Source: Alterinioella nitratireducens (GTDB lineage: Bacteria > Pseudomonadota > Alphaproteobacteria > Rhodobacterales > Rhodobacteraceae). From it: a DNA stretch of 64,000 nt. The notes under the pieces were generated by a model. That model worked only from the letters and a program-made list of their open reading frames with translations, did not search any database and was not told where the DNA came from. The stretch spans positions 1 to 64,000 of the forward strand of contig NZ_JABJVX010000006.1 in assembly GCF_013155465.1 (NCBI RefSeq), given 5' to 3'. The position numbers and the translations under genes were made by a program. Shown piece by piece: positions 4,085 through 26,909 of this stretch (positions are counted from its first letter, which is position 1; each line of letters opens with the position of its first letter).

Positions 4085-4927
4085 TCAGCGTCCTTTCTTC
4101 TTGGCGTGACGCGAGCGGATGATCAGCTTCTGCGACGCCTTGTTCTTGTTGCGGGTGCGGGCACCCTTGGTGGGCTTGCCCCAGGGCGTGACGGGGTGAC
4201 GGCCACCGCTCGTCCGACCCTCACCACCGCCATGCGGGTGATCGATCGGGTTCATCACGACACCGCGGACCGACGGACGCTTGCCGTAATGGCGGTTGCG
4301 CCCGGCCTTGCCGAGGTTCTGGTTCGAGTTGTCGGGGTTCGAGACCGCGCCAACCGTGGCCATGCACTCCTGGCGCACCATGCGAAGCTCGCCCGACGAG
4401 AGGCGGATCTGCGCGTAGCCACCGTCACGGCCGACAAACTGGGCGTAAGTGCCCGCGGCGCGTGCGATCTGGCCGCCCTTGCCCTGCTTCAGCTCGATAT
4501 TGTGGATGATGGTGCCGATGGGCATGCCCGAGAACGGCATTGCGTTGCCCGGCTTGATGTCTGCTTTCGCGGACGCGACCACCTTGTCACCGACGCCGAG
4601 GCGCTGCGGAGCCAGGATATAGGCCTGCTCGCCATCTTCATAGCGAATAAGCGCGATGAAGGCGGTGCGGTTGGGGTCATATTCGATGCGTTCGACGGTC
4701 GCGGGGACGTCGAGCTTGTTCCGTTTGAAATCGACGATGCGATAGAGACGCTTTGCGCCACCACCAATGCGACGCATGGTGATCCGTCCGGTGTTGTTCC
4801 GGCCGCCCGACTTGGTCAAACCCTGGGTGAGGGATTTGACGGGACGTCCTTTCCACAGCTCCGAACGGTCGATCAGAACCAGCCCACGCTGGCCCGGCGT
4901 CGTCGGCTTATACGACTTGAGTGCCAT
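4085..4927 (-). CDS. rplB: 50S ribosomal protein L2
   Basis: A 280-residue L2, needed for subunit association and peptidyl transfer. [15 protein letters not shown] at the start and the C-terminal [25 protein letters not shown] loop, with the conserved histidine, are diagnostic. The frame is open further upstream, but the ATG at 4925-4927 matches the family start and follows a GGAAGA ribosome site. In most bacteria rplW lies directly upstream; here a 1.3-kb gap with a foreign-looking gene intervenes. rplB has its own apparent promoter and leader hairpin. Confidence 0.97.
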
Positions 4928-5015
4928 GTTAACTGTCTTCCGTTTTCTGTGCGGGAGGCTTTCGCTTCCCTGATGTTCTAGGCCCCCGTAGGTGCCCGGG
5001 TAATGTGGTCTTGCG

Positions 5016-5047
5016 ACCAAAAACAGAGCCCCGGACGAATCCGGGGC
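5016..5047 (-). terminator. Attenuator-like intrinsic terminator in the rplB leader
   Basis: Perfect 8-bp stem GCCCCGGA (5028-5035) / TCCGGGGC (5040-5047) with a 4-nt loop. Read on the minus strand it is followed by CTCTGTTTTTGG. It lies between the inferred rplB promoter (-10 at 5062-5067) and rplB itself, so RNA from that promoter would meet it after fewer than 15 nt. It would either cap transcription of the upstream cassette or attenuate rplB expression. Confidence 0.65.
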
Positions 5048-5061
5048 CATGCCGATGGGGT

Positions 5062-5090
5062 CTCTTAGGGGAGGCCACCTTGAGGGTCAA
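5062..5090 (-). promoter_or_regulatory. Candidate sigma-70-type promoter for rplB
   Basis: On the minus strand TTGACC (5085-5090) and TAAGAG (5062-5067) are 17 bp apart. The start would fall near 5055, directly before the leader hairpin. Since rplW ends in its own terminator, rplB-rpsS-rplV-rpsC-rplP need a promoter and this is the best candidate seen. Confidence 0.45.
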
Positions 5091-5376
5091 TAGCCCCGCA
5101 AAAGAAAGCGCGTGAGGCCGCGCGATGGCCAGACCGCGGGATGGCGATGCAACGGGCGTTCGGAGCACTTTATCTCGGCCAAACCCGAACACCCTCCGAG
5201 CGATGCGCCTGCCTCACCAAATCGCCAACCCGGGGGGCGGTCTGGCGATCGCGCGGCGGCCTGACGGCCTTGATTCCGCTCCGAATGGCTACAGAGTATG
5301 AGGATTGAGAACTCAAGCAATACCCGGTGAGACTAGCGATGTTCATGGATCGCTAAAGTGCAATGCTGTGAGGGCG

Positions 5377-6009
5377 TTAGCCCCGCAAGTACTTTCTAGC
5401 ATCCTCAATTGTCGCAAACACTTTTTCTCCACCAGAAATCGTCTTCAACGAATAGTTGCCATCTGTTCCCCTCGTAAGAGTCCTTCTTCTGCCGGTAGCA
5501 TCGGCAATCTCGAACAAGTTTGGAGTTTCGTGCTCGACAACCGTAGTTGGGCATTCGCATTCCATGGCTCCGAGGCGTTCGTCGAGAATTTGGCTGACTC
5601 GGTATCTTACATAAAGCGACCGTGCACGATCCGTGTTTCCATCAGACGTCTCAGTGGCTCTTGCCATTGCAGCATGGTTCACCTCGTTTTTCTCAAGTTC
5701 GCTCCATGCTTGAGCGTATGCATCATCTTCGAATCTAGCGCGCATTTCCTCTTTCATTGCAAAGGCTTGTTGTTCTCTTTCTGCAAGACGCACTTGACGG
5801 CCCCTTGCTCTTCCTTCTTCCAATTGTTTGTCAATGTACTCCGGTGATGGCCCAATGATCAGCAACACGATCCCTGCCAATATAGGCGAACCGATCATTG
5901 CAAGAAGAACAAACGGTATTGGAGGACGACCAATTTCGTGAGCCCAGTACCCAATGCCCGCCCACCCGATTATCAACGCCAGAACAATTATAGTACTTAG
6001 TGGTTCCAT
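5377..6009 (-). CDS. Hypothetical two-helix membrane protein inside the S10 operon
   Basis: A 210-residue protein I do not recognise. The ATG at 6007-6009 is chosen over an earlier one because GAGGAGG precedes it by a few bases. It has two N-terminal membrane segments (about residues 2-22 and 27-50), then a charged helix likely to form a coiled coil (about 58-105), then a soluble C-terminal part with two cysteines in MECECPTT. The gene is clearly more AT-rich than its neighbours. It lies between rplW and rplB, which are normally adjacent, and is bracketed by terminators. This suggests horizontally acquired DNA. Function unknown. Confidence 0.7.
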   Translation of the reverse strand: MEPLSTIIVLALIIGWAGIGYWAHEIGRPPIPFVLLAMIGSPILAGIVLLIIGPSPEYIDKQLEEGRARGRQVRLAEREQQAFAMKEEMRARFEDDAYAQAWSELEKNEVNHAAMARATETSDGNTDRARSLYVRYRVSQILDERLGAMECECPTTVVEHETPNLFEIADATGRRRTLTRGTDGNYSLKTISGGEKVFATIEDARKYLRG

Positions 6010-6110
6010 GAATCCTCCTCGAACTGCATACTTGGCATCCACTTTCAGAACGATTGTTGCGCATTCTGTTCAGAAATACATCCCCTGAGGACAGTAGAGT
6101 CACATCAAGC

Positions 6111-6183
6111 GTAGGGTGGGCATTCTGACCACCATCCCAACCTGCACACATCGCCCATCGGTAGGCAGAACTGCCCACCTTAC
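6111..6183. repeat. REP doublet (REPIN-like), about 73 bp
   Basis: GTAGGGTGGGCA at 6111-6122 faces TGCCCACCTTAC at 6172-6183, giving terminal inverted repeats matching 11 of 12. Each end is itself a GTAG/GTAA head plus an imperfect palindrome built on GGTGGGCA...TGCCCACC. Two inverted REP units form a typical REP doublet. A second, cleaner copy occurs between fusA and tuf. No REP-associated tyrosine transposase is in the window. Confidence 0.75.
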
Positions 6184-6185
6184 CC

Positions 6186-6220
6186 AAAGAAAAACCCCGG
6201 CCACTCTCGCAGCCGGGGTT
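6186..6220 (-). terminator. Intrinsic terminator after rplW
   Basis: Stem AACCCCGGC (6193-6201) / GCCGGGGTT (6212-6220). The minus-strand transcript continues into TTTTTCTTTGGG, so it stops transcription coming from rplW, 28 nt after its stop codon. It divides the S10 operon into two transcription units. Confidence 0.85.
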
Positions 6221-6247
6221 CATTCCGTCACATATCAACGCACGCCC

Positions 6248-6544
6248 TTACAGCCCGGTCGACACATCAATCGTGTTGCCCTCTTCGAGCGTCACATAGG
6301 CCTTCTTCACGTCCTTGCGGCGACCCAGCTGGCCCCGGAAACGCTTCTGCTTGCCCTTGGTGATCGTCGTGTTCACCGCCTTCACCTTCACACCGAAGAG
6401 GCTTTCGACCGCCTCCTTGATCTGCGGCTTGTTGGCGTCGATCGACACTTCGAACACAACCGCGTTGGCGTCGGACGCCATGGTTGCCTTCTCGGTGATG
6501 ACCGGCTTGCGGATCACGTCGTAATGTTCAGCTTTGGCACTCAT
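6248..6544 (-). CDS. rplW: 50S ribosomal protein L23
   Basis: A 98-residue L23, at the exit-tunnel mouth and the docking site for trigger factor and SRP. Features are the N-terminal [14 protein letters not shown], the central [24 protein letters not shown] and the C-terminal [10 protein letters not shown]. The start overlaps the rplD stop by 4 bp. A strong terminator follows, instead of rplB. Confidence 0.98.
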
Positions 6545-8212: not shown

Positions 8213-8578
8213 CTGTATCAGCCTTTCGAGGCGAGAGTTGATAGGACGACCGGCAGCTCATCCACCGGCCCTCATCGAACCCGAAAGGCGGGACTTGGAC
8301 CCCGCCTCTCAAGCGTCCGCATGTGCGAACTCGCGCGGGATACATGGGTGGGCGGAATCTATCAAGCGGAAAGTTCCGCGCGCGGGCACAAAGCCGGATT
8401 TCGCCCGCAGGGGGCATTTCGCAATAATCCACTTGCTTTTTGCGGGCCGGGGCCCCATGTGAGGGCTGCGACGTTACCACTATCGACCATACTGCTCCTA
8501 TCGGCTCAGTCCTTCGATCTTGCACTGACTTAGCCGACCTGCCGCATACTGCGGGCAGCACAAACAGGAGATACGACA
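8213..8578. other. Divergent rpsJ / cspA control region
   Basis: 366 bp without a gene between the divergent rpsJ (minus) and cspA (plus). A promoter-like pair for rpsJ lies at 8337-8365. For cspA, TTGCAC near 8532 followed by CATACT near 8557 (spacing about 19) is the only weak candidate. AGGAG precedes the cspA ATG. No other structure recognised. Confidence 0.5.
8337..8365 (-). promoter_or_regulatory. Candidate rpsJ operon promoter
   Basis: On the minus strand TTGATA (8360-8365) and TATCCC (8337-8342) are 17 bp apart. The same TTGATN/TATCC pattern at 17-bp spacing precedes the tRNA-Trp gene in this window. The transcript would have a leader of roughly 120 nt before rpsJ. Confidence 0.45.
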
Positions 8579-8785
8579 ATGGCAACTGGCACCGTCAAAT
8601 GGTTCAACGCCACCAAAGGCTTCGGCTTCATCGCACCCGATGGCGGCAGCAAGGACGTGTTCGTGCACATCTCTGCCGTCGAGCGCGCAGGCCTGACCGG
8701 CCTGGCCGATGACCAGAAAGTGACCTTCGACATCGAGCCCGGTCGCGACGGCCGCGAAAGCGCGACCAACCTCGCACTGGCGTAA
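8579..8785 (+). CDS. cspA: Cold-shock protein, CspA family
   Basis: A 68-residue single cold-shock domain protein, a nucleic-acid chaperone that melts RNA structure. RNP1 is visible as KGFGFI (residues 14-19) and RNP2 as DVFVHI (about 27-32), after the usual TGTVKWFN start. AGGAG lies 7 bp before the ATG and a good terminator follows. It stands alone on the plus strand between the str and S10 operons. Which member of the Csp family it matches cannot be settled from sequence. Confidence 0.95.
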
Positions 8786-8823
8786 GGCTCGGCCCTTCGG
8801 GGCAGATGTTGAGAGAAATGAAA

Positions 8824-8851
8824 GGGCGTGCTGGAAACAGCGCGCCCTTTT
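8824..8851 (+). terminator. Intrinsic terminator of cspA
   Basis: Ten-base stem GGGCGTGCTG (8824-8833) / CAGCGCGCCC (8838-8847), with one G-T pair, a GAAA loop, then TTTTCC. Confidence 0.85.
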
Positions 8852-8996
8852 CCTTTGCGCGGCTGCGGGTGAAAGGAAAAGGGCCGCCCCGAATTGGAGC
8901 GGTTTCCTTTGTCTGAGGGTCTGGCGGGGTGAACCCCGCCCTGCGAGGTCCTTGAGATTCGGGGACCGGATCAGTCTTTGCAACGATAGCACGGAA

Positions 8997-9025
8997 AAAG
9001 GCCGCCCCGGATTGGAGCGGCCTTT
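8997..9025 (-). terminator. Intrinsic terminator downstream of tuf copy 1
   Basis: AAAGGCCGC (8997-9005) pairs with GCGGCCTTT (9017-9025); the minus-strand RNA then runs into TTTTTCC. A decayed copy of the same hairpin (GCCGCCCCGAATTGGAGCGG) lies at about 8881-8902. Confidence 0.8.
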
Positions 9026-9101
9026 CCAATTCTCAACCGGAGTGGGTTCTCATCGCTCTTTCAGAGCGTCTGCCACCCACCCTGACACCGCAGTTGCGGT
9101 A

Positions 9102-26725: not shown

Positions 26726-26909
26726 GCTCTCAAACACCTTTCCGTTTCTTCGCGTCGCACAACACCGCCGGGGCCGCGGGCGCGCGTCACATTGAAACAA
26801 ACGGGTCCGGACCAATTCGTGCCTGCCGTCCCACGGGCGGGCTCCCGATCCATTGAACCGCGCCTTAGGGAAGGTCCGTCTCTCCACGGGCCCTCGCCAA
26901 GACGAGGTT

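Follow-up and report, generated by a model that had tools for sequence, protein, structure and literature searches.

Unrelated genes recurrently occupy the rplW-rplB joint of the S10 ribosomal operon in Rhodobacteraceae

Gene order in the S10 operon is a textbook example of conservation, and the operon is among the most conserved in bacteria. Integration hotspots are known between conserved core genes, where diverse and fast-changing genes lie between fixed neighbours without sharing an integrase. The joint described here, between rplW and rplB, likewise holds diverse guest genes, with no shared integrase among the families listed for them, but it lies inside a highly conserved operon, at a predicted promoter boundary.

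The closest described system was found in the same bacterial group. For Ruegeria pomeroyi, proteogenomic work (Christie-Oleza et al., 2012; PMC3305630) described expressed orphan genes in the interval from rpmD to rplO, a region that varies among roseobacters. According to the RT-PCR evidence presented there, these orphans are transcribed apart from the ribosomal genes, with a terminator situated before them, and similar insertions are described in sucCD and sdhCDAB. A second relevant element is the RNA motif RF03142, predicted by Eckert and Weinberg (2020; PMC7247131). It is graded as borderline by its authors, who name rplB, rpsS, rplV and rpsC as the genes under its control and whose assignment of the ligand was drawn from the nearest gene alone.

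As in the rpmD-rplO region, orphans of variable size and content are found at rplW-rplB between what are likely separate ribosomal transcription units and, on the account given in PMC3305630, the kind of phenomenon is already known. That account concerns rpmD-rplO, however, and describes neither a displaced promoter nor an L2 leader, nor does it compare the joints one by one. Separate transcription of the guests is supported there by RT-PCR; at rplW-rplB the corresponding signs are in the sequence, a terminator-like hairpin at 6192-6221 and a predicted promoter at 5062-5090, and the guests may be transcribed separately. The RNA predicted as RF03142 is the same as that lying directly before rplB in the genome studied here and its relatives, although the main text of PMC7247131 does not link it to operon splitting or insertions. 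No report of the rplW-rplB joint, of a survey of joints or of a displaced promoter with an L2 leader was found in the open-access papers searched.

The window analysed is a stretch of 64,000 nucleotides from Alterinioella nitratireducens (NZ_JABJVX010000006.1, positions 1 to 64,000). An initial annotation had placed 1.3 kb between rplW and rplB; the gap is confirmed and measures exactly 1,320 bp (4928-6247; GC 0.535). The features in and around it are:

4085-4927, minus strand: rplB (L2), which opens the downstream unit rplB-rpsS-rplV-rpsC-rplP
4930-4997, minus strand: L2 ribosomal-protein leader RNA (RF03142), Rfam covariance match of 62.2 bits
5027-5048, minus strand: leader hairpin H (GGCCCCGGATTCGTCCGGGGCT), terminator-like, from a hairpin scan
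5062-5090, minus strand: predicted promoter of the rplB unit, from a comparative test
5117-5257, no strand assigned: 140-bp palindromic dispersed repeat with 21-nt arms, 95% complementary
5377-6009, minus strand: gene X, an orphan of 210 aa, with its ATG at 6009 and its stop at 5377
6014-6019: Shine-Dalgarno sequence AGGAGG of gene X, a perfect match
6110-6132 (ending CCCACCCTACG) and 6160-6178, no strand assigned: two short palindromes (REP-like doublet)
6192-6221, minus strand: hairpin T1, intrinsic-terminator-like, directly after rplW, with a 13-bp stem and a T-rich tail
6248-6544, minus strand: rplW (L23), which closes the upstream unit, identified by its open reading frame and by homology to 171 Rhodobacteraceae genomes

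These features support the earlier proposal that the S10 operon is split here into two likely transcription units. The REP doublet that had been noted corresponds to the two short palindromes, and units resembling them are present after rplW in many relatives. A scan of the region for terminators gave five sites, against 1.4 expected. Terminators had been proposed on both sides of the insert, and a terminator-like hairpin in the operon direction is present on each side. The one next to rplW stands, as T1 (6221-6192); the other, at 5048-5027, more probably belongs to the rplB leader. It lies downstream of the predicted promoter at 5062-5090 and so would be a leader element instead of, or in addition to, a terminator for gene X. 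The dispersed palindrome, the promoter and the leader RNA had all been missed. The match to RF03142 covers the full-length model, exceeds the gathering score of 37.8 and lies directly upstream of rplB.

Gene X, which is oriented like the operon, has a GC content of 0.49 and a GC3 of 0.45, below the mean GC3 of 0.73 (sd 0.10) of the 39 long open reading frames in the window. At its composition, an open frame of 210 codons would arise by chance with a probability of about 3e-5. A single-sequence structure model of modest confidence (mean pLDDT 72, pTM 0.33) predicts that the product begins with two hydrophobic (transmembrane) helices, continues as a long coiled coil and has a small beta domain at its C-terminus. 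Composition and prediction agree with the description of an unknown two-helix, coiled-coil membrane protein of lower GC. No homologue was found in 198 Rhodobacteraceae genomes at an E-value of 0.001, nor in 385 genomes of the class Alphaproteobacteria, in plasmids or in viral contigs; the suggestion of foreign DNA is supported insofar as gene X combines this lack of relatives with a foreign composition. Several candidate matches were set aside. Three in Rhodobacteraceae (E 0.003-0.006) are partial and at chance level; those to phages cover 24% of the length, in the transmembrane region (E 5e-3 to 9e-3), and a PHROG of unknown function matches the same part (1.4e-4), all of them too weak to use. 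Sequence matches in the PDB are to calcium-channel membrane segments and are taken as coincidental, and a fold search with the model gave nothing below an E-value of 0.25 and no useful structural match. Gene X is best explained as one recent, AT-rich guest at the rplW-rplB joint, and its predicted product would most probably be an accessory protein that is anchored in the inner membrane and comes from a mobile source.

In 122 Rhodobacteraceae genomes, each of a different genus by genus codes and with both genes on one contig and strand, the rplW-rplB gap ranges from 30 bp to 5.8 kb. At 66 named loci of the family, the window included, it measures 63-8015 bp with a median of 1,429 bp, whereas the neighbouring joints rpsJ-rplC, rplC-rplD, rplD-rplW, rplB-rpsS, rpsS-rplV, rplV-rpsC and rpsC-rplP are all 152 bp or shorter. 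Across the tuf-S10-spc cluster, just four of 22 joints ever exceed 300 bp: tuf-rpsJ (above 700 bp in 12/34), rplW-rplB (49/65), rplP-rpmC (above 700 bp in 58/64) and rpmD-rplO (19/26). Several genomes carry the two genes on opposite strands or with over 10 kb between them, and the seven separated loci that were read keep the hairpin, the L2-leader hairpins and the conserved start region before rplB. Comparison establishes that insertion recurs and that it is confined to few joints. The view that insertion into this operon is rarely tolerated is not supported for Rhodobacteraceae, where the joint is a recurrent insertion site: the gap exceeds 700 bp at 46 of the 66 named loci, and a rooted tree requires at least 18 changes between split and joined states, a rough count, as many branches are weakly supported, which makes it uncertain how many splits were independent.

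In the window the tuf-rpsJ joint is also enlarged, to 889 bp (8213-9101) and holds a cold-shock-like open reading frame (8579-8785, plus strand). In this genome the rpmC and spc genes lie about 233 kb inside another contig, and rplP and rpmC (window end 1-2273) appear to be physically separated too.

The predicted promoter in the window is of the sigma-70 type, with a -35 element TTGACC (5085-5090) and a -10 element TAAGAG (5062-5067) separated by a 17-nt spacer. Of 109 split gaps, 47 contain the pattern TTGAC-N17-TA, where dinucleotide shuffles give 3.6, and with -35 variants taken from separated loci (TAGACA, TTGCCA) such a promoter pattern is present in 91 of 113 against 3.5 expected; the patterns were picked after inspection of the sequences, and counts from related genomes, which share ancestry, do not equal independent trials. 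The spacer is 17 in 75 split gaps and 16 or 18 in none, and it would be hard to find another explanation for such conserved spacing. Hexamers, fixed spacing and above-chance conservation, as expected of a sigma-70-type promoter, were all seen in this comparative test; a generic scan based on the TATAAT consensus missed the window promoter. Within the first 110 nt of the gap, a terminator-like hairpin is found in 86 of 113 split gaps and in 41 of 73 compact gaps, where the leader hairpin is included in the count.

Conservation of the promoter is accompanied by that of the hairpin and the leader. In split relatives a fixed block stands beside rplB, made up of hairpin H, UNCG-type hairpins and AACGGAAGACAGAAAGCATG, and a conserved AACGGAAGACAG precedes the start codon. 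Among the loci scanned for the L2 leader, it scored above threshold at 32 of the 40 that are split and at 13 of the 20 that are not. We infer that L2 is the ligand, and it probably represses its own mRNA through this RNA. Elsewhere in the window, at 26756-26851 on the minus strand, there is a match of 61 bits to the Rhodo-rpoB RNA (RF03074).

On the strength of these sequence comparisons, it is likely that the S10 cluster of this family consists of separately transcribed modules, in which rplB has its own promoter and L2 leader and the joint before it serves as a tolerant landing site for quickly replaced guests. The rpsJ-rplC-rplD-rplW module would stop at the terminator after rplW. The rplB-rpsS-rplV-rpsC-rplP module would start from its own sigma-70-type promoter, and its transcript would carry the 5' hairpin and the L2 leader. 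With rplB driven from a promoter and leader of its own, and transcription of rplW ending at a separate terminator, inserts would no longer interrupt ribosomal expression, and DNA landing between that terminator and that promoter would harm neither module. The independence of the modules would also explain why rplW-rplB takes inserts while neighbouring joints do not. The joint would then gather unrelated genes with a fast turnover, and the simplest guess is that these enter when the conserved genes on either side recombine, not through a dedicated integrase.

The inserts themselves are mostly unrelated between genomes and lie in both orientations. Their open reading frames match dozens of families, nearly each of them once, including desaturases, AIPR, AbiU, Fic, MatE, YceI, DUFs, the phosphatase PhoX and a ParE toxin. 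In its varying length and its unrelated contents, enclosed by ribosomal genes that stay in place, rplW-rplB resembles the variable region of roseobacters. In Nioella nitratireducens, which represents the sister lineage of the window genome, the gap is 821 bp and holds a different gene, and one insert gene is common to Ruegeria species, in differing surroundings.

A site-specific mobile element could be imagined that targets the sequence after rplW, either the terminator hairpin or the REP palindromes, and carries the guests as cargo. This would account for the restriction of insertions to one joint within the S10 unit, where palindromic repeats are frequent. The 140-bp palindrome, which has no Rfam match in the window scan, recurs at the rplW-rplB joint in several other genera; its roughly seven copies in the window genome, however, place it elsewhere as well, and three further joints are affected. 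No common integrase or transposase is present among the families listed for 168 insert ORFs (the 25 commonest per scan), and one IS1595 transposase occurs among the insert ORFs. Nor does the window gap hold an integrase or transposase gene with defined ends, its sole open reading frame of 90 aa or more being gene X, which matches no Pfam or NCBIfam family. Such an element therefore seems improbable. There is about as little likelihood that the insert is selected, with gene X and other guests drawing an expression or gene-dosage benefit from a highly transcribed site, or regulating ribosome synthesis from it. Gene X has an excellent ribosome-binding site, and a guest at another ribosomal joint of R. 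pomeroyi is reported in PMC3305630 as an abundant protein, but the lack of relationship among most guests and their mixed orientation speak against a shared benefit, and the terminator after rplW would part gene X from the ribosomal transcript. That the operon is still one unit, with leaky terminators and an insert that is a recent, mildly harmful accident, agrees with the direction gene X shares with the operon but is very improbable, since splits recur and persist in many genera, separated loci retain the rplB leader block and the promoter is conserved.

A possible origin of the promoter is suggested by the unsplit genomes, in which a comparable signal straddles the stop codon of rplW. In these genomes (gaps of 80-240 bp), T[AG]ATA is present at the rplW stop in 57 of 63, against 1 of 113 split genomes, and TTGACN-N17-TA spans the stop in 21 of 63, against 0 of 112. 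Close to the end of rplW, 23 of the 63 use ATT for the Ile that precedes the Asp, compared with about 9% elsewhere in the gene. Stop and Ile codon choices are coupled in unsplit relatives, TAATA occurring with ATT in 18 of 18 cases and TGATA mostly with ATC, often after the rare Thr codon ACT. In the ATC/TGATAG class the -35 element is weaker and the promoter reading only suggestive. An RNA stem across the stop (CTATC/GATAG) was considered for the unsplit genomes and is not claimed, since the codon coupling could represent two lineage-specific promoter variants.

The gap measures 6-34 bp in five outgroup genomes from other families and 31-49 bp on the deepest branches of Rhodobacteraceae; the compact and split states come after these branches. 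Reversals may have occurred by deletion or by whole-allele recombination. We lean towards a history in which the S10-spc cluster of Rhodobacteraceae came apart step by step, always at the same few joints, the steps at rplW-rplB being visible in living species. A tight junction would have acquired a leader and a promoter across the rplW stop; the promoter would then have been displaced into intergenic DNA behind a new terminator, guests would have entered, and rearrangement would finally have separated the two parts, in a sequence repeated independently many times.

In this family one internal joint of the S10 operon breaks repeatedly while its neighbours never do, and a plausible reason is legible in the DNA: the downstream genes have a promoter and leader of their own. 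Such joints provide places where foreign genes settle naturally, and what holds operons together becomes directly testable in easily grown marine bacteria.
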